From: Acidimicrobiia bacterium
Lineage (GTDB): Bacteria > Actinomycetota > Acidimicrobiia > Spongiisociales > UBA5794
Reading direction: 5' to 3'
Assembly (NCBI GenBank): GCA_024762335.1
Contig: JANTHO010000011.1
Location: 1-51,529 of the forward strand
DNA: 51,529 nt
Shown: in pieces, positions 32,930 to 43,029 of the stretch
Position numbering within the stretch: the first letter of the stretch is position 1
How the letters are laid out: each line of letters begins with the position of its first letter
Notes under the pieces: model-generated
What the model saw: the letters and a program-made list of their open reading frames with translations, nothing else
Databases searched by the model: none
What the model was told of the DNA's origin: nothing
Translations under genes and position numbers: made by a program

Positions 32930-34261
32930 TCAGTTGGTCTGTAGGTCGTGCTCGATGAGGAAACCGGCGAGGATTTCGCCGAGTTTCGCTGCGGCCTCAT
33001 CACCGAGGTCGTAGTAGACCCTCGTCGAGGGCACGTCGATCGAGATGATGTTCGCTAGGTCCACCGGGGTGCCGACCACGACCGTGTCGGGAGCGGCGCG
33101 GCGAATCGTCTCTTCCAACTCGGCACGCTGGGTGGCTCCGTATCCCATGGCGGGAAGGACCGGTCCGATGTGTCCGTACTTCTCGTACACGCCGACGATC
33201 GAACCGACGGCGTACGGCCTCGGATCGATGATCTCGGCGGGTTCGAGGTTGGCAGCGACGACGTATCCGGCGCCGAACGGCATCTGGCCGTGGGTAATCG
33301 TGGGGCCGTCGTCGAGGACGAGCACGCGCTTTCCCGTTACCGAATCCGGGTCGTCGATGCGGATCGGTGAGGCCGCTTCGATGATGGTTGCATCCGGGAC
33401 CATCGCCTCGACCGACCGGCGCAGCTCCGCAACCGCCTCCTCGGGTGCCGTATCCACCTTGTTGATGATCACGACATCCGCCATGCGGAGGTTCGCCTCG
33501 CCAGGCCAGTAGCGGGACTCGTGGCCCGACCGGAACGGGTCGGTCACACAGATCGACAGGTCGGTCTCGTAGAAAGAGAGGTCGTTGTTGCCGCCATCCC
33601 AGACGATCACATCGGCTTCGGCTTCGGCGGCTTCGAGAATCTCGCCGTAGTCGACACCGGCGAAGATCACCGAACCCTCCCGGATGTACGGCTCGTACTC
33701 CTCCCGCTCTTCGATCGTTGTGTCGGCAGCCACCAGATCCTCGAACGTTGCGAATCGCTGAACCCGCTGGGCCGCGAGATCTCCGTACGGCATCGGATGC
33801 CGGATCGCTGCGGAGCGAAGTCCCCGATCGGCCAGCATGCGGTGGATCAGACGACTCGTCTGACTCTTGCCGGCCCCGGTCCGAACGGCGGTGACGGCGA
33901 TCACCGGCTTGTGAGACTTCAGCATCGCCCGGCGTCCCGCAACCGCGAACGCAGCACCCGCAGCAACCGACCGCGCGGCGACGTGCATCACCTGTTCGTG
34001 GGTGACGTCGGAGTATGAGAACAGAACCAGGTCGGCACCGAACTGTTCGATGAGCGACTCGAGTTCCTCCTCGGGGAAGATCGGAATGCCGTCGGGATAG
34101 AGCTCCCCGGCCAACTCCGGCGGGTAGGTACGTCCGGCGATGTCCGGAATCTGCGTGGCCGTGAACGCGACCACTTCGAATCCCGGATCATCGCGATAGA
34201 GGACATTGAAGTTGTGGAAATCCCGGCCGGCGGCGCCGACGATGATCACGCGTTCTCTCAT
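32930..34261 (-). CDS. Cyclic 2,3-diphosphoglycerate synthetase-like P-loop protein (COG2403)
   Basis: A 443-residue protein. The N-terminal half is Rossmann-like (VIIVGAAGRDFHNFNVLYRDDPGFEVVAFTA). Residues 128-133 are a P-loop, TGAGKSQTSR, followed by later VIINKVDTA (an NKxD-like nucleotide motif) and DVIVWDGGNNDLSF. This arrangement is the COG2403 family, whose archaeal members make cyclic 2,3-diphosphoglycerate. Whether bacterial members do the same is not established, so only the family is asserted. ATG at 34261-34259; 23 bases after the rex gene, so probably co-transcribed. A possible link to stress or central metabolism is inference. Confidence 0.75.
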   Translation of the reverse strand: MRERVIIVGAAGRDFHNFNVLYRDDPGFEVVAFTATQIPDIAGRTYPPELAGELYPDGIPIFPEEELESLIEQFGADLVLFSYSDVTHEQVMHVAARSVAAGAAFAVAGRRAMLKSHKPVIAVTAVRTGAGKSQTSRLIHRMLADRGLRSAAIRHPMPYGDLAAQRVQRFATFEDLVAADTTIEEREEYEPYIREGSVIFAGVDYGEILEAAEAEADVIVWDGGNNDLSFYETDLSICVTDPFRSGHESRYWPGEANLRMADVVIINKVDTAPEEAVAELRRSVEAMVPDATIIEAASPIRIDDPDSVTGKRVLVLDDGPTITHGQMPFGAGYVVAANLEPAEIIDPRPYAVGSIVGVYEKYGHIGPVLPAMGYGATQRAELEETIRRAAPDTVVVGTPVDLANIISIDVPSTRVYYDLGDEAAAKLGEILAGFLIEHDLQTN

Positions 34262-35912: not shown

Positions 35913-36878
35913 CTACCGGTCCCCCATCGACGGCCACCAACCGGCGCGGCCGATCGCAGACGGCAACGTCTTGCCAAGATGTTCGCCGAGCCATCTCGCC
36001 GTGTCGATGATCCCATCGTGATCGACGCCCGTGTCGACGCCCATGCGCTCGAACAGATACAGCAGGTCCTCCGTGGCGACGTTGCCGGTGGCGTTGGGCG
36101 CGAATGGGCATCCGCCCGCACCTCCAACCGATGCGTCGAGGCTGCCGATCCCGGCGGCGTAGGCGGCCGCGGCATTTGCCACACCCGTGTTGCGGGTGTC
36201 GTGAAAGTGGCCCCGCAACGGGACGTCGGTCGCCGATCGAATAGCCTCAACCATGCGCGTCACGTCGCTTGGAACGGCGACGCCGATCGTGTCGCCGAGC
36301 GCGATCTCGTCCGTCCCTGCATCTGCCGCACGAACCGCGAGACGGACGACACTCTCCACCGGGACGGGACCGTCGTACGGGCAACCGAACGCCACCGAGA
36401 TGGTCACGGTGGTCTTCAAACGGTCGGCGGCTTGCAACATCGCCTCGATCTCCGTCATCGTCGTCTCAGGAGACGCTCCCGCGTTCGCCCGGTTGAACCC
36501 TTCCGACGCGCCGACGACGAAATTGACCTCATCGACGACGGTTGCCATCGCCCGATCGAGCCCCCGGCGGTTGAGGACGAGCCCGATGAACGAAACACCT
36601 TCGGGACTCGGACCGAGCCCTTCGAGGACGGCTTCGGCATCGGCCATCTGCGGAACACGCCCGGGGTGAACGAACGACGCTACCTCGATCCGCGACGTTC
36701 CCGCGGCGATGAGTCGGCCGATCAACTCGATCTTCGTGGCGGTGTCGATGACGGCCGATTCGTTCTGGAGGCCGTCCCTGGCTCCCACCTCGACGAGATG
36801 GACACGACCGACTTCGCCCGCCTCGATCGTCCGGTGGTTCGTTTCGCTTCTCAACATCACTCCGGGAGATTCCAGCAT
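35913..36878 (-). CDS. HMG-CoA lyase-like aldolase (DRE-TIM metallolyase)
   Basis: A 321-residue TIM-barrel protein. VEVGARDGLQNESAVI opens the barrel with the family R-D-G-L-Q-N signature, followed by IEVASFVHPGRVPQMAD, HFHDTRNTGVANAAAAYAAG and SVGGAGGCPFAPNATGNVATEDLLYL, the catalytic glycine-rich loop with its conserved Cys. This is diagnostic for the HMG-CoA lyase / leucine-catabolism lyase family. ATG at 36878-36876 is preceded by GGAG at 4 bases; a second ATG 21 bases later also works. Other members of the DRE-TIM family remain possible, but the loop fits HMG-CoA lyase best. Confidence 0.85.
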   Translation of the reverse strand: MLESPGVMLRSETNHRTIEAGEVGRVHLVEVGARDGLQNESAVIDTATKIELIGRLIAAGTSRIEVASFVHPGRVPQMADAEAVLEGLGPSPEGVSFIGLVLNRRGLDRAMATVVDEVNFVVGASEGFNRANAGASPETTMTEIEAMLQAADRLKTTVTISVAFGCPYDGPVPVESVVRLAVRAADAGTDEIALGDTIGVAVPSDVTRMVEAIRSATDVPLRGHFHDTRNTGVANAAAAYAAGIGSLDASVGGAGGCPFAPNATGNVATEDLLYLFERMGVDTGVDHDGIIDTARWLGEHLGKTLPSAIGRAGWWPSMGDR

Positions 36879-36993
36879 TAGCTCCGATTATGGCCCAGAA
36901 CAGGTCGGGACGCGCCGGGTGCGTGTCGTCCCGCCGTACGATGTCGATTGTGGATCACGACTCCGAGACTCTGCTGCCGGCGAACTCCGACCG

Positions 36994-37893
36994 ATGGCAC
37001 TCCTGATTCCCGATTCTCGTGGAGCGCTCTTCAGCGGGCTCGTCGACGACGCACGGCTGCTCGGAGATCAGCGGGTCTCACTCGAGGACGCCGTTGAGCA
37101 GCACCGGTCACTCCGGACCGGCGACAACGGATGGATCGTCGGCCGGTTCATGCTCCCCGCCACGATGCTCGAGGATCTCGCCGGCATCCTCATCCGCACC
37201 ATGACGGCCGGAGAGACACCCTGGCGTATCGCCGCCATCTTCGGCGACGACCCGGCACGGGATGCATCCATCGCCGCCTCGTTTCATGCTGCGATGGATC
37301 CGGCGGCATCGATCGACTCCGTCCACGTCCCATGGAACCGCCGTCGGCCCATCGAGTTCGCAACGGACTCCCTCGTTGCAGGGCACGGAGTGCATCCGGA
37401 CGTGTTGCCGCTCCTGAGCACGGACATCGCTTATCACCCCGAAGCGGCCCTCGAGATCGTCGATCGCACTCGCGCCGACACGCTCAGACCGGTCGGCCTG
37501 AGCCTCGAGTCGACAGCCCGCCACGATCCTGCGCTCCTCCTGGAGATGATGGATCGGTGTGCCCGCGCCGGTGTGCCGTTCACGATCGGTCCAGACTCGC
37601 GCGCAGCCGTGACCCGTTCGGATCCATCCGACTCGGGGTTGAAGTATGGCGTGGTCAACCTCATCGGCACCATGCTCATGGGTTCTACAGCACACCCCGA
37701 CGACCGTATGGACCTGCTCCTCGACGATGACCCGGGTTCGTTCGAGATCGGATTCGCCGGCATGAGATGGCGGAGTACATCCATCGGATCGAACGCACCC
37801 CTCGGAGGGAGGAGGGATCCGCTCCTCTCGATCGGCTCCGTCAATCCGGACACCGCTGTCCGCACGATCGGAGAGATCATTACGGCAGGATGA
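36994..37893 (+). CDS. Hypothetical actinobacterial protein
   Basis: A 299-residue soluble protein. It opens MALLIPDSRGALFSGLVDDARLLG, then a helical stretch (DAVEQHRSLRTGDNGWIVGRFMLPATMLEDLAGIL) that resembles an unnamed actinobacterial family starting with G-L-V-D-D-A and followed by G-R/P-F-x-x-P. No catalytic motif was identified. ATG at 36994 is chosen because the family N terminus starts here; upstream in-frame GTGs would add an unrelated leader. It is followed 58 bases later by the MoaD-fusion gene. Function unknown. Confidence 0.5.
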   Translation: MALLIPDSRGALFSGLVDDARLLGDQRVSLEDAVEQHRSLRTGDNGWIVGRFMLPATMLEDLAGILIRTMTAGETPWRIAAIFGDDPARDASIAASFHAAMDPAASIDSVHVPWNRRRPIEFATDSLVAGHGVHPDVLPLLSTDIAYHPEAALEIVDRTRADTLRPVGLSLESTARHDPALLLEMMDRCARAGVPFTIGPDSRAAVTRSDPSDSGLKYGVVNLIGTMLMGSTAHPDDRMDLLLDDDPGSFEIGFAGMRWRSTSIGSNAPLGGRRDPLLSIGSVNPDTAVRTIGEIITAG

Positions 37894-37951: not shown

Positions 37952-38953
37952 ATGCCGACGCTACGACTCTTCGCCCGTTTCAGAGAGATCGCAGGAACCG
38001 ATACGCTCACCGTCGAGGAGGGCACCGTCGGCGAGATTCTCGATGGCCTCTCGAGCGAGTACGGGCCCGCCTTCGAGAACGGACTCAAAGCCGCCGGAGT
38101 CTGGGTGAACGGCAATCCTGTCGAACGCTCCGCCCCCGTGGGAGAAGACGACGAAGTGGCGATCATTCCCCCCGTCTCGGGTGGTACCTACGCGCAACCG
38201 CGTACCCGATCCCAGCTCACCGTCGATCCCGCCGACGGAATCCTGCCCGTCATCGTGCTCGCCGCTCTGCTCATCTCCGCGTGGGTCCCCCTCGAATGGT
38301 TCGTCGTCATCTCCGTCGGTGCGGCTCTCGCTTGGCTCTGGGACCTGGCCGACACCGATGCGTCCCAGGCCGGATCAGTCAATCTCTACGCCGTTCTGTT
38401 CGCCCCCCCGATCACCGCAGCAGCGACCTATGCGTGGGGCTATGAAGGCTTCGCCGGCGGTCTCGCCCTCTCGGTGGCGGTCGCGATCTTCTGGCCGATC
38501 TTCCAACCGCACCAGCGCAACGTCGAAGCGATCGCCATGACGACGACCGCGGGGGTCATCTCGGCCGTGGGCACTGGGACCCTGGTCATGCTGCGGATGA
38601 TGTCGACGACGGTCGCATTGACGTTCATCCTGATCGTGGCGGTGGCGATCATCGCCGCCCTCCTGACGTCCGTGTACGGAGGTCAGACCGTTGATCCGAA
38701 CGTAGGAACCCTCGCCGGTGCTCTCGTTGCGGGCCTCATCGCCGGGATCGCAACCTCGGAGATCGATATCGCGACCGGACTGTTCGCCGCCGTGGCCGTC
38801 GCAGCAGGCTTGATCGCAGGACGCGTCTTCGGCTCGATGATCCGCTCCGGATCCATCATGTACACCGTGCGAACTCCCGGCCAGCTCAGCGCACTCGACG
38901 GATTGTGGATCGCTGCACCACTCTTCTGGCTCGCTCTGGTCCTTCTGGGCTGA
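37952..38953 (+). CDS. MoaD/ThiS-like domain fused to a degenerate CdsA-like membrane domain
   Basis: A 333-residue protein. Residues 1-78 are a ubiquitin-like MoaD domain (LRLFARFREIAGTDTLTVEEG, GVWVNGNPVE, EVAIIPPVSGG) that ends in a Gly-Gly (77-78). In MoaD this Gly-Gly must be C-terminal to be activated as a thiocarboxylate. Here it continues directly into about eight transmembrane helices (about residues 95-333). The end, GRVFGSMIRSG...SALDGLWIAAPLFWLAL, resembles the C terminus of phosphatidate cytidylyltransferase (CdsA), but the usual K-D catalytic motif is missing. Either the protein is cleaved after Gly-Gly, or the domain is non-catalytic. ATG at 37952. Confidence 0.75.
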   Translation: MPTLRLFARFREIAGTDTLTVEEGTVGEILDGLSSEYGPAFENGLKAAGVWVNGNPVERSAPVGEDDEVAIIPPVSGGTYAQPRTRSQLTVDPADGILPVIVLAALLISAWVPLEWFVVISVGAALAWLWDLADTDASQAGSVNLYAVLFAPPITAAATYAWGYEGFAGGLALSVAVAIFWPIFQPHQRNVEAIAMTTTAGVISAVGTGTLVMLRMMSTTVALTFILIVAVAIIAALLTSVYGGQTVDPNVGTLAGALVAGLIAGIATSEIDIATGLFAAVAVAAGLIAGRVFGSMIRSGSIMYTVRTPGQLSALDGLWIAAPLFWLALVLLG

Positions 38954-39001: not shown

Positions 39002-40150
39002 ATGGCATCGCATCGAGCCCCTCGCGGCCTCATCTTCCTGATCGTTGTCGCCCTCCTGGCGATCATTCCGATCGCTGCCTCGGCCCAGACCGATGGCGAC
39101 GTCAAGCGCGCCGAAGGACAACTGGATCGGGCCAAGGAGAACACGTCCGCCGCATACGGCAGGTGGGTTGCGGCACAGGATGAGGTAGATGCGGCGTTGC
39201 TCGCTCTCGACAAGGTGACGAGTGAACTCGACAACCTTGCCTACACGATCGGGCTGCTCGACAGCAAGATCTCGAGCTATCAGGGCAACGTCGATGAGCT
39301 CAGAGCCACAGCCCAGCAACTCGTCCTCGAGGCGTACACGTCTGGTGGGCGCGGCATGGTCACGGCAGCGTTCGAGGCGGGATCGATCCAGGACCTCCTC
39401 ACCTCGCAGCAGCTGATGAACAACGCGGCCAGCCGCGACATCGCCGATCTCGACCGCCTCCAGGCGGTCTCTCGTGAGATGGATCGTCTCAAGCTCGAGA
39501 AGAAGGAGAAGAAGGCGGAAGTCGAGGTTCTCGAGGCGGATGCCGCCGCCTACGCCGAACGGGCGAACGCCCTGGCCGACCAGGCGAAAGCCACCTACAA
39601 CGAGGCCAGCGCGGCCGAGCAGCGAGCGATCGACAATCTGGCGAAGGAGCGACGCGAGCGTCAGGCGGCCATCGCCCTGAAGAAGGCACGCGACGTGGCC
39701 GCGGCGAACTCGAAACCCGGGAAGGCCGCCGGTCTTCCACCCGCCGCCACACCGGGTTTCTACTGCCCCGTCCAGGGTGGCGCCTCGTTCATCGATTCGT
39801 GGGGATTCCCCCGCTCCGGTGGCCGCAAGCACAAGGGCGTCGACATGTTCAACAAGCGCAACACCCCGCTCATCGCCGTCGTGGACGGCCGGGTCAAGTT
39901 CTCGTCGAATAGTCTCGGCGGACTGTCGACCCATCTCTACGCTGCCGACGGCACCGTCTACTACTACGCGCACCTCGAGCGTCATCCAACGAATATCGCT
40001 TCCGGCTCGTTCGTCAAGGCCGGCACCGTCGTCGGCTACCTTGGAAACAGCGGCAACGCCCGCTATACGTCACCCCATCTTCATTTCGAGATCCGCCCCG
40101 GAGGCGTCGCGGTCAATCCCTACCCGACCGTGCGCCACTACTGTCCCTGA
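39002..40150 (+). CDS. Murein hydrolase activator-like M23 peptidase with coiled coil
   Basis: A 382-residue secreted protein. Signal peptide MASHRAPRGLIFLIVVALLAIIPIAASAQ is followed by a long coiled-coil region (about residues 32-235, EnvC/NlpD-like), then a LytM/M23 domain. The zinc site is intact: HKGVD (His277, Asp281) and HLHFE (359-363, His-x-His). It should cleave peptide cross-links in peptidoglycan or activate amidases during division. ATG at 39002. It is adjacent to the RsiG-like gene, 27 bases downstream; whether they share a promoter is unclear. Confidence 0.88.
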   Translation: MASHRAPRGLIFLIVVALLAIIPIAASAQTDGDVKRAEGQLDRAKENTSAAYGRWVAAQDEVDAALLALDKVTSELDNLAYTIGLLDSKISSYQGNVDELRATAQQLVLEAYTSGGRGMVTAAFEAGSIQDLLTSQQLMNNAASRDIADLDRLQAVSREMDRLKLEKKEKKAEVEVLEADAAAYAERANALADQAKATYNEASAAEQRAIDNLAKERRERQAAIALKKARDVAAANSKPGKAAGLPPAATPGFYCPVQGGASFIDSWGFPRSGGRKHKGVDMFNKRNTPLIAVVDGRVKFSSNSLGGLSTHLYAADGTVYYYAHLERHPTNIASGSFVKAGTVVGYLGNSGNARYTSPHLHFEIRPGGVAVNPYPTVRHYCP

Positions 40151-40177: not shown

Positions 40178-40720
40178 GTGGAACCTCGCAGGAGACGCAT
40201 CGATCAAGTGACCGACCCGGCGTTCGTCGAGAACCTCGAGTCGCTCGCAATGGAAGAACTCAGAGGACGCCGTCGCGTCCTCGACGACCTCGACACGGAA
40301 CTGTCGTTCTATCGCAGGATGCTGCACGGACGCATGGATCTGCTCGCCTTCGAGATGCGTCGCAGGTCCGGTGAGGAGACTCGATCACTGATCGAAGCGC
40401 TCCCCCAGATCCTCGCCGACGGCAACGTTGGACCCGGTCGGAACGTCATTCCCAAGGACCTTCCGCTGACGCTCCCGGAATTCAGCGGCGAGGGCAACCG
40501 GACGATCGATCATGTGCTCGATGACGGATTTCTCGCGCGCCTCCCGAGCCTCGACGAGGACGAACTCCGCGAGATCCAGGCCATGCTCACCGCAGCCGAG
40601 CGGGACATCTCCGCACAGCGTCGTGCCGTCTACTCGGCCTACGATCGCATCACTGAGGAGATCACCCGGCGATACCGCGAAGGAACCGTCGACGGCTCCG
40701 ACCTCCTCGCCGAGCACTAG
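40178..40720 (+). CDS. RsiG-like cyclic-di-GMP-binding anti-sigma protein
   Basis: A 180-residue helical protein. It contains two copies of the RsiG helix motif E-x3-S-x2-R-x3-Q-x3-D, with the same spacing but some substitutions: D39-S43-R46-H50-D54 (TELSFYRRMLHGRMD) and E141-S145-R148-Y152-D156 (ERDISAQRRAVYSAYD). In Streptomyces, RsiG uses these helices to bind a c-di-GMP dimer and to sequester the sigma factor WhiG. The GTG at 40178 has GGGAG eight bases upstream. The usual partner whiG is not in the window. The substituted residues (Q to H and Y, E to D) leave it open whether c-di-GMP is bound. Confidence 0.75.
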   Translation: MEPRRRRIDQVTDPAFVENLESLAMEELRGRRRVLDDLDTELSFYRRMLHGRMDLLAFEMRRRSGEETRSLIEALPQILADGNVGPGRNVIPKDLPLTLPEFSGEGNRTIDHVLDDGFLARLPSLDEDELREIQAMLTAAERDISAQRRAVYSAYDRITEEITRRYREGTVDGSDLLAEH

Positions 40721-41957: not shown

Positions 41958-42842
41958 TCAGATCCCGAAGATCAGTTGCCGGAGCCGGACCCGCTGAGTA
42001 TCGAATGTCTCCAGATCGACACGCAGAGATCCAAGCCGGAGCCCGCGCATCGCTTCGCCGTGATGGGTGGCAACGCGCAAGACACCGTCCACGGACTCGA
42101 CCACACCGAGCCCGAGACAGCGCCCCTCGTCGTCCTGCACACCAACCAGCATGCCGTCGAGCCGGTCGAGATCGAACTCGGCCGGAAGGGTCGGAGCAAA
42201 GACCGTTGTCTGAACCCGCCACCGTTGCAGTGGTGCAGAAAGGGCGGTCCGGAACGCATCAGCCTGTCGCTCGTGACGCTCTGTGGGGGAAGGCGGCGGA
42301 GCGTCGGACGGCGGTTCGACGGTCGCGATCTTTGCCGAGAGGAAACGGCGCAGCATTCCGATGATCGGCTCGAGCTCTTCGCCTCGTTGGAGCGCCACAC
42401 CGAGCGAGGGTTGGGCGAGTTCCCATAGGTGGTACTTGAGGGTCTGGCCGACCACCCCGCCGACAACGCTGCTCGTGTCGAGAATGACGAGATCGGCCCG
42501 GGGTCGCGCGATCTCGACGAGCGAGCCGACGGCGACCACGTGGGGAAGCACAACGCCTTGTGGCGAAATGGAACCCACGAAACGCATCTCTGCAGCAGGA
42601 ACGTTCGGGTCGAGATCGGCTGCGGTCTCGACGAACTTCAGGCCGACACATCCGGGTGGCCCGGCGACGGTAGAGGCGACGTCTCCATCGACGTAGGCCA
42701 CCGTACGGCCCGCGTCGATCGCGTCGAGCACGAGCAGTTTCGCTAGGGTTGTCTTGCCCGTCTCCGGCGCGCCGATGAGCATCACCACACCCGACACGTC
42801 GGCCAGACGCTCTCGTAGCGCCGCATAGGCCCGACCCGGCAC
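41958..42842 (-). CDS. Clp1-family P-loop protein (predicted polynucleotide 5'-kinase)
   Basis: A 294-residue P-loop protein. The Walker A is LIGAPETGKTTLAKLL, followed by VAYVDGDVASTVAGPPGCVGLKF. The remainder, including ADLVILDTSSVVGGVVGQTLKYHLWEL, LGVALQRGEELEPIIGMLRRFLS and the C-terminal GLRLGSLRVDL, fits the bacterial branch of the Clp1/Grc3 kinase family. Eukaryotic and archaeal members phosphorylate RNA or DNA 5'-OH ends. The bacterial function is not established. GTG at 42842-42840 is preferred because AGGAGG ends six bases before it; the frame is open further upstream through the palindromic element, which is not coding. Confidence 0.7.
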   Translation of the reverse strand: MPGRAYAALRERLADVSGVVMLIGAPETGKTTLAKLLVLDAIDAGRTVAYVDGDVASTVAGPPGCVGLKFVETAADLDPNVPAAEMRFVGSISPQGVVLPHVVAVGSLVEIARPRADLVILDTSSVVGGVVGQTLKYHLWELAQPSLGVALQRGEELEPIIGMLRRFLSAKIATVEPPSDAPPPSPTERHERQADAFRTALSAPLQRWRVQTTVFAPTLPAEFDLDRLDGMLVGVQDDEGRCLGLGVVESVDGVLRVATHHGEAMRGLRLGSLRVDLETFDTQRVRLRQLIFGI

Positions 42843-42907
42843 CACGCACCTCCTGAAGACGACACGTCCATTGTAGGAAGCGAACACCCTGTAGCCGCGC
42901 GCCCACC

Positions 42908-42960
42908 CCGACACGAACCCAGGGTTCTCTGCTTTGTATACGCGGTCCCGGGCCCGCGGT
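42908..42960. repeat. 54-bp palindromic element, left copy B
   Basis: This copy runs left to right in the same orientation as 29247-29301. The first 24 bases and the last 16 match; the 12-base core differs (TTTGTATACGCG instead of GCCCTATATGRC). It forms the left arm of an inverted pair with the copy at 42976-43029, separated by a 15-base loop. Confidence 0.85.
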
Positions 42961-42975
42961 ATGGAGAAGCCTCGT

Positions 42976-43029
42976 GAACCGCGGGCCCGGGACGTCATAT
43001 AGGGCGCAGAGAACCCTGGGTTCGTGTCG
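42976..43029. repeat. 54-bp palindromic element, right copy C
   Basis: This copy is inverted relative to the other two and is 53/54 identical to 29248-29301. Its last base is directly next to the stop codon of the minus-strand amidotransferase at 43030. Together with the left copy it would form one hairpin about 50 bp long. Confidence 0.88.

Follow-up and report, generated by a model that had tools for sequence, protein, structure and literature searches.

How can a MoaD-like sulphur carrier, whose thiocarboxylation is described in part of PMC4326299 as needing a free C-terminus, be encoded at the front of a membrane protein? The question is raised by an open reading frame in the window, the 51,529-nucleotide stretch of Acidimicrobiia DNA analysed here (Table 1), which starts with ATG and runs without an internal stop in a single continuous frame. 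Its amino-terminal part matches PF02597 (ThiS/MoaD) over residues 5-78 in a Pfam scan (E 6.3e-12) and the MoaD family TIGR01687 in an NCBIfam scan (E 2.2e-13), both above cut-off, and the MoaD domain has PPVSGG as its C-terminal end. As encoded, this end is not free: Gly78 is followed by 255 residues in the same frame, and for that reason the product is at most a MoaD precursor until it is cut. The preliminary description of the locus had proposed a MoaD-like domain joined to a membrane domain, with Gly77-Gly78 followed by about 255 residues of membrane protein, and on both counts it was right. Structures predicted for the whole fusion (seven sequences) have a mean pLDDT of 46.1 (about 66-80 in the MoaD part), and the membrane part predicted alone has a pLDDT of 38.7; neither of these low-pLDDT predictions was taken on to a comparison of folds.

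Table 1. The fusion gene, its parts, and two neighbouring genes in the window.
Feature	Position	Strand	Basis and remarks
Whole fusion ORF	37952..38953	+	333 aa plus stop; full-length relatives across the order
MoaD/ThiS ubiquitin-like domain, residues 1-76	37952..38179	+	PF02597, TIGR01687
Gly77-Gly78, end of PPVSGG; proposed cleavage after Gly78	38180..38185	+	Alignment of 70 copies
Variable linker, residues 79-95	38186..38236	+	Alignment; Thr79 comes first here
CdsA-like membrane domain, residues 96-333	38237..38950	+	Profile comparison; about nine hydrophobic segments
Region matching the CdsA signature, residues 298-316 (R298...P309-G310...D316)	38843..38899	+	Motif correspondence by eye
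M23 peptidase gene	39002..40150	+	Pfam; downstream on the same strand in 41/46 fused loci
RsiG-like gene	40178..40720	+	Pfam; downstream in 36/46 fused and 12/19 sister-order loci

The arrangement is an old gene fusion that is conserved across the order to which the window belongs. A search of 395 genomes of the class with the fusion protein gave matches in 297; within the order these are mostly full-length, at 28-93% identity, and the matches listed from other orders are confined to about the first 80-95 residues. Counting any match to the fusion protein as a fusion, a few of them partial at contig ends, 127 of the order's 138 genomes carry it, as do 77 of the 78 genomes of high quality (completeness of 90% or more, contamination of 5% or less), a tally that includes G249 (E 1.1e-16), which may have the MoaD part only. 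The homologous fusions that the preliminary description had suggested seeking are thus found, at full length, in most genomes of the order.

Within an alignment of 70 full-length copies from 70 genomes (L031-L036, apparently repeats of same-genus genomes, being set aside), Gly77 and Gly78 are each present in every copy, as are Pro73, Pro74 and Val75; PPVSGG as a whole occurs in 69, the exception, L053, having PPVAGG. Overall identity among the copies drops below 30% while Gly77-Gly78 stays invariant. Behind these residues the linker is variable: over residues 76-90 the commonest residue at each position has a mean frequency of just 0.33, even though S76-G77-G78 are among them. The position directly after Gly-Gly is occupied by Ala (39 copies), Thr (13), Ser (13), Glu (4) or Asp (1), so that Ala, Ser or Thr stands there in 65 of the 70. 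Recurrence across the order with Gly-Gly invariant argues that the fusion is more than chance, and pN/pS values of 0.22 for the MoaD domain, 0.25 for Gly-Gly plus linker and 0.20 for the membrane part, obtained from 21 pairs among seven same-genus copies, indicate that the frame is under selection throughout.

What the MoaD domain is joined to is less readily recognized. The sequence from about residue 96 to 333 is hydrophobic and has about nine stretches that may cross the membrane. Taken singly, the membrane parts match Pfam CTP_transf_1 in two of the 70 copies only (best E 0.93), and a PDB profile search of the membrane part returned nothing at E ≤ 10. Scattered weak matches of single membrane parts in Pfam and NCBIfam, to GPI2 (6/70, best E 0.028) and to an antiporter model (3/70, best E 4.3e-5) were taken as composition noise. 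A profile built from the 70 membrane domains matched 15 of 396 genomes of the phylum, seven of them members of the order and eight others, and all eight matches outside the order are CdsA genes, as judged by the KRDLGIKD, PGHGG and DRxDS motifs read in their sequences. Seven of these eight entered an alignment of CdsA (phosphatidate cytidylyltransferase), against which the membrane domain gave an hhalign probability of 98.4 (E 8.1e-15, 240 columns); the score of 105.8 compares with 15.1 and 20.5 for reversed controls and with a maximum of 45.0 in 30 block shuffles. By profile comparison the two are therefore homologous. They differ in that the K-D and HGG residues, invariant in the seven CdsA sequences, are missing from the fused domain, so that the CdsA signature (K-D, PGHGG, DRxDS) is absent from the membrane half; the early impression of a CdsA-like domain without its catalytic K-D is supported by the profile comparison. 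Invariant in all 70 membrane domains are W128, D131, R298 and G310, and D316 is kept in 69. On sequence grounds, then, the membrane half is a CdsA relative that lost its catalytic motif, a pseudo-CdsA that looks like a dead lipid enzyme. Its homology to CdsA might be read as that of an active cytidylyltransferase for which MoaD serves as a regulatory domain, a proposal we find scarcely credible when the K-D and HGG residues are gone and a bona fide CdsA is encoded separately, both in the source genome (C32) and in 76 of the 78 high-quality genomes of the order. Positively charged residues cluster in loops 135-145, 186-193, 214-217 and 295-314, of which all but 214-217 fit a cytoplasmic N-terminus in a nine-segment model, and from this charge pattern we infer that MoaD lies on the cytoplasmic side of the membrane.

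The sister orders suggest where the fusion came from. There moaD is a separate gene, and since the RsiG-like gene follows it in both settings (Table 1) the moaD locus is orthologous across fused and sister orders. In 10 of 24 sister loci, moaD is immediately followed by a second gene that encodes a hydrophobic protein of 262-319 aa and overlaps moaD by 4 bases in seven of the ten pairs; the other 14 loci have no CdsA-like partner gene after moaD. These partners were assigned by a mechanical rule on position, length and hydrophobicity. A profile of the sister partners matches CdsA (E 2.5e-8; score 63.5, against a maximum of 30.2 in shuffles), and its match to the fused domain is weak (hhalign probability 44.6, E 2.3e-4), with a score of 36.1 against a maximum of 25.6 in 30 shuffles. 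Kinship between the fused domain and the sister partner is suggested by their shared homology to CdsA taken together with their shared position. A tree of MoaD domains separates the 70 fused from the 19 standalone sequences with none of the 89 misplaced (local support 0.89), a split that is what a single old fusion event predicts. Judging from these comparisons, an operon pair probably became one gene once, in the ancestor of the window's order, and it is less likely that two CdsA relatives were recruited independently.

The same gene pairs, with their frequent 4-base overlaps, could be taken to mean that the two halves are separate products in the window's order as well, whether through a frame error, a missed stop or an independent internal start, and candidate internal starts occur in many copies: an in-frame ATG is present at residues 79-112 in 29 of the 70, and any of ATG, GTG or TTG in 64. 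The membrane half may on this showing also be translated from a start of its own, yet such a start would leave the length of the MoaD product unchanged; moreover the junction has no stop in 70 copies from 70 genomes, the linker itself has a pN/pS of 0.25, and fused and standalone MoaDs part cleanly in the tree. We consider separate products very improbable, and because the frame is continuous in all 70 aligned copies we regard the gene as a true fusion and not a frame error. The preliminary description had reckoned that a frame problem, or separate genes in relatives, would remove the fusion. No frame problem was found; separate genes do occur in sister orders (10/24 loci), but in the window's order all 70 frames are continuous, and since the separation lies one level up the sister-order gene pair explains the fusion and does not remove it.

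Thirteen of the 24 sister MoaDs end exactly at Gly-Gly. We note that the other 11 (within L077-L095 and L121-L125) carry 1-39 further residues past Gly-Gly and would need trimming too, as if C-terminal trimming were routine in the class.

Whether the fusion can supply a functional MoaD depends on the company it keeps. In the source genome, which is 93% complete, it is the only ThiS/MoaD-family match, and the same family search found no cysO-like carrier. The genome encodes one MoaE, one E1-like rhodanese-ThiF protein (L100:7444-8496, C24) and one JAMM protein (PF14464; L101:1900-2787, C43) that has an N-terminal DUF2007-like stretch and an HxHPx6SxxD motif read by eye. The rhodanese domain of this E1 is N-terminal, unlike that of mycobacterial MoeZR, which the cited portion of PMC3227635 places at the C-terminus. 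All three genes lie on contigs other than that of the fusion, and the flanks of 46 fused loci, covered for up to about 6 kb and for less where a contig ends sooner, contain no match to JAMM, E1 or MoaE. The genomic linkage of a JAMM protease or an E1 that had been envisaged was thus not borne out, and the JAMM-free surroundings of these 46 loci are not those of a CysO-type gene beside mec.

The fusion is the sole carrier in 65 genomes of the order, with MoaE present in 59 of them and JAMM in 53. In the high-quality subset the corresponding figures are 35 of 38 for each gene and 33 of 38 for both together. JAMM is present in 74 of the 78 high-quality genomes of the order, as against 168 of 190 elsewhere in the class, and, being nearly as common outside the order, it is weak evidence; as evidence specific to the fusion it was rejected after this class-wide control. 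Several genomes have JAMM next to a second ThiS-family gene, in a CysO arrangement (G094:C205, G236:C35, G074:C154). The presence of JAMM is necessary for the idea of cleavage yet not specific to it, and its retention in the window's family, where no other carrier is found, is suggestive. Among the 78 high-quality genomes a JAMM match is absent from four that carry the fusion (G210, G232, G062, G245) and a MoaE match from six (G133, G210, G042, G249, G180, G268); the fusion is the sole carrier in G210, from which both are missing, in G232, which has no JAMM match, and in G133 and G042, which have no MoaE match. Incompleteness of the genomes may account for these gaps.

We think it likely, though by no means certain, that the fusion is a MoaD precursor, cut by a JAMM protease after Gly78 to give a free MoaD that is loaded by the E1 and pairs with MoaE. 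The MoaD domain would fold on the cytoplasmic side, with the dead CdsA-like membrane protein following in the same chain. A protease, most likely the single JAMM (DUF2007-JAB), would then cut after Gly78, so that the released MoaD has Gly-Gly at its C-terminus; Gly78 would next be adenylated and thiocarboxylated by the one rhodanese-E1, and the freed MoaD together with the single MoaE would constitute molybdopterin synthase. The membrane half would remain and act like the separate CdsA-like neighbour of moaD in the sister orders, perhaps by docking cofactor assembly at the membrane or by regulating it. We infer the cleavage, its protease and the role of the membrane half. The reading is favoured because Gly-Gly is invariant across the order with a variable linker behind it that mostly opens with Ala, Ser or Thr, because the source genome offers no other ThiS/MoaD-family match while MoaE, E1 and JAMM are all present, and because MoaD needs a free C-terminal Gly, for the exposure of which MoaX offers a precedent. 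Of the three options first put forward, the cleaved precursor is accordingly preferred, and the tethered carrier and the non-catalytic fusion less so.

MoaX, a MoaD-MoaE fusion of Mycobacterium tuberculosis, is cut between Gly82 and Ser83, and the cited part of that report does not identify the protease (PMC4326299). Like the fusion described here, it continues past the Gly-Gly of its MoaD domain with a small residue and then another domain, and it needs a free C-terminus; its second domain, however, is the catalytic partner MoaE, whereas the present fusion has a CdsA-like membrane protein in that place and MoaE comes from a gene of its own. DrMoaD-MoaE is cut after GG by DRJAMM (PMC8832034), and so is the linear fusion SAMP1-MoaE by HvJAMM1, deletion of Gly-Gly or Val-Ser-Gly-Gly having abolished its detectable in-cell cleavage (PMC4443979). 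These are likewise ubiquitin-like carriers with Gly-Gly, and SAMP1 ends in VSGG as does the MoaD domain of the fusion, but their release by JAMM is on record whereas here cleavage is a prediction; their partner, too, is MoaE and not a membrane protein, and the SAMP1 fusion is artificial in its host.

Were the fusion to stay uncleaved, its MoaD domain would be a membrane-tethered carrier or scaffold in which Gly-Gly is kept for structure or binding. The stability of the fusion over the order, the purifying selection on the membrane half and the CdsA-like gene adjoining moaD in part of the sister orders are all in keeping with this, and the operon pairing there would fit a function that lies in membrane association itself. 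We nonetheless judge a permanently tethered carrier unlikely, as the known chemistry requires a free C-terminal Gly, an unused internal Gly-Gly should drift and yet is invariant in all 70 copies beside a variable linker, and the source genome has no other MoaD candidate though MoaE is present.

Release of the domain does not by itself settle what it is released for, and its main task could be to carry sulphur for cysteine in the manner of CysO, or to modify proteins as ubiquitin does, and not to act as the MoaD of molybdopterin synthase. The JAMM gene of the source genome adjoins metallo-beta-lactamase and RNase PH genes, an arrangement like that around mec in M. tuberculosis; two high-quality genomes, G133 and G042, have the fusion without a MoaE match; and the fusion gives a sub-threshold match (E 1.1e-10) to NF041918, the model for SAMP1. 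Set against this, MoaE accompanies the fusion in 35 of the 38 high-quality genomes in which it is the sole carrier, and where a carrier does adjoin JAMM it is a different ThiS-family gene (G094:C205, G236:C35). A role chiefly outside molybdopterin synthesis seems improbable to us, and it is possible that the released domain has both kinds of role.

Sulphur carriers fused to other proteins are known, and the sections cited of PMC1779556 list ThiS-ThiG, ThiS-sulphite reductase and MoaD-aldehyde ferredoxin oxidoreductase. None of the three has a CdsA-like membrane partner, and in ThiS-sulphite reductase the carrier is C-terminal. In the same sections the sole membrane-fused ubiquitin-like domain is an actinobacterial YukD, which is joined to 12 membrane helices (PMC1779556). 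It resembles the present fusion in joining a ubiquitin-like domain to a multipass membrane protein, and differs in its ubiquitin-like family, its membrane part and its gene neighbourhood; a Pfam search of the fusion at E ≤ 1 gives ThiS and weak GPI2 only, with no YukD-type domain. The 12-helix protein is presumably EccD of the ESX system, and we know of no Gly-Gly in YukD. A fusion of MoaD to a CdsA-like membrane protein was not reported in the literature searched, judged mostly from titles and abstracts. The new element is thus the tie of MoaD to a dead CdsA relative, as fused and probably processed carriers were already known.

The fusion draws attention to a so far unstudied membrane protein that would partner MoaD and that looks like a lipid enzyme gone dead, and raises the question of whether cofactor assembly is membrane-organised. 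If the cleavage of the precursor is confirmed, a whole order makes the small subunit of molybdopterin synthase only by proteolysis of a membrane precursor, and offers a case in nature on which Gly-Gly processing outside MoaD-MoaE fusions can be tested. More tentatively, and with rather more doubt than confidence, the CdsA-like protein may be a partner that this class dedicates to MoaD, encoded next to it in part of the sister orders and forming one polypeptide with it in the window's order; it would dock synthase assembly or sulphur loading to the membrane, and in the fused form JAMM cleavage would set the amount of active MoaD. Were this so, the fusion would be a membrane-gated, protease-activated sulphur carrier.

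Several neighbours of the fusion in the window deserve mention in their own right. The RsiG-like gene lies near moaD class-wide, whether moaD is fused or separate. Directly upstream of the fusion, the ORF at 36709-37893, the start of which is uncertain, has no match in Pfam or NCBIfam, and its homologues vary in position and strand among related loci. Further downstream, 41958-42998 encodes a CLP1-type polynucleotide kinase P-loop domain, here in a bacterium (PF16575, E 3.3e-22). The 443-aa P-loop protein encoded at 32930-34261 has only a weak match to CobW, and resembles proteins annotated as cyclic 2,3-diphosphoglycerate synthetase.
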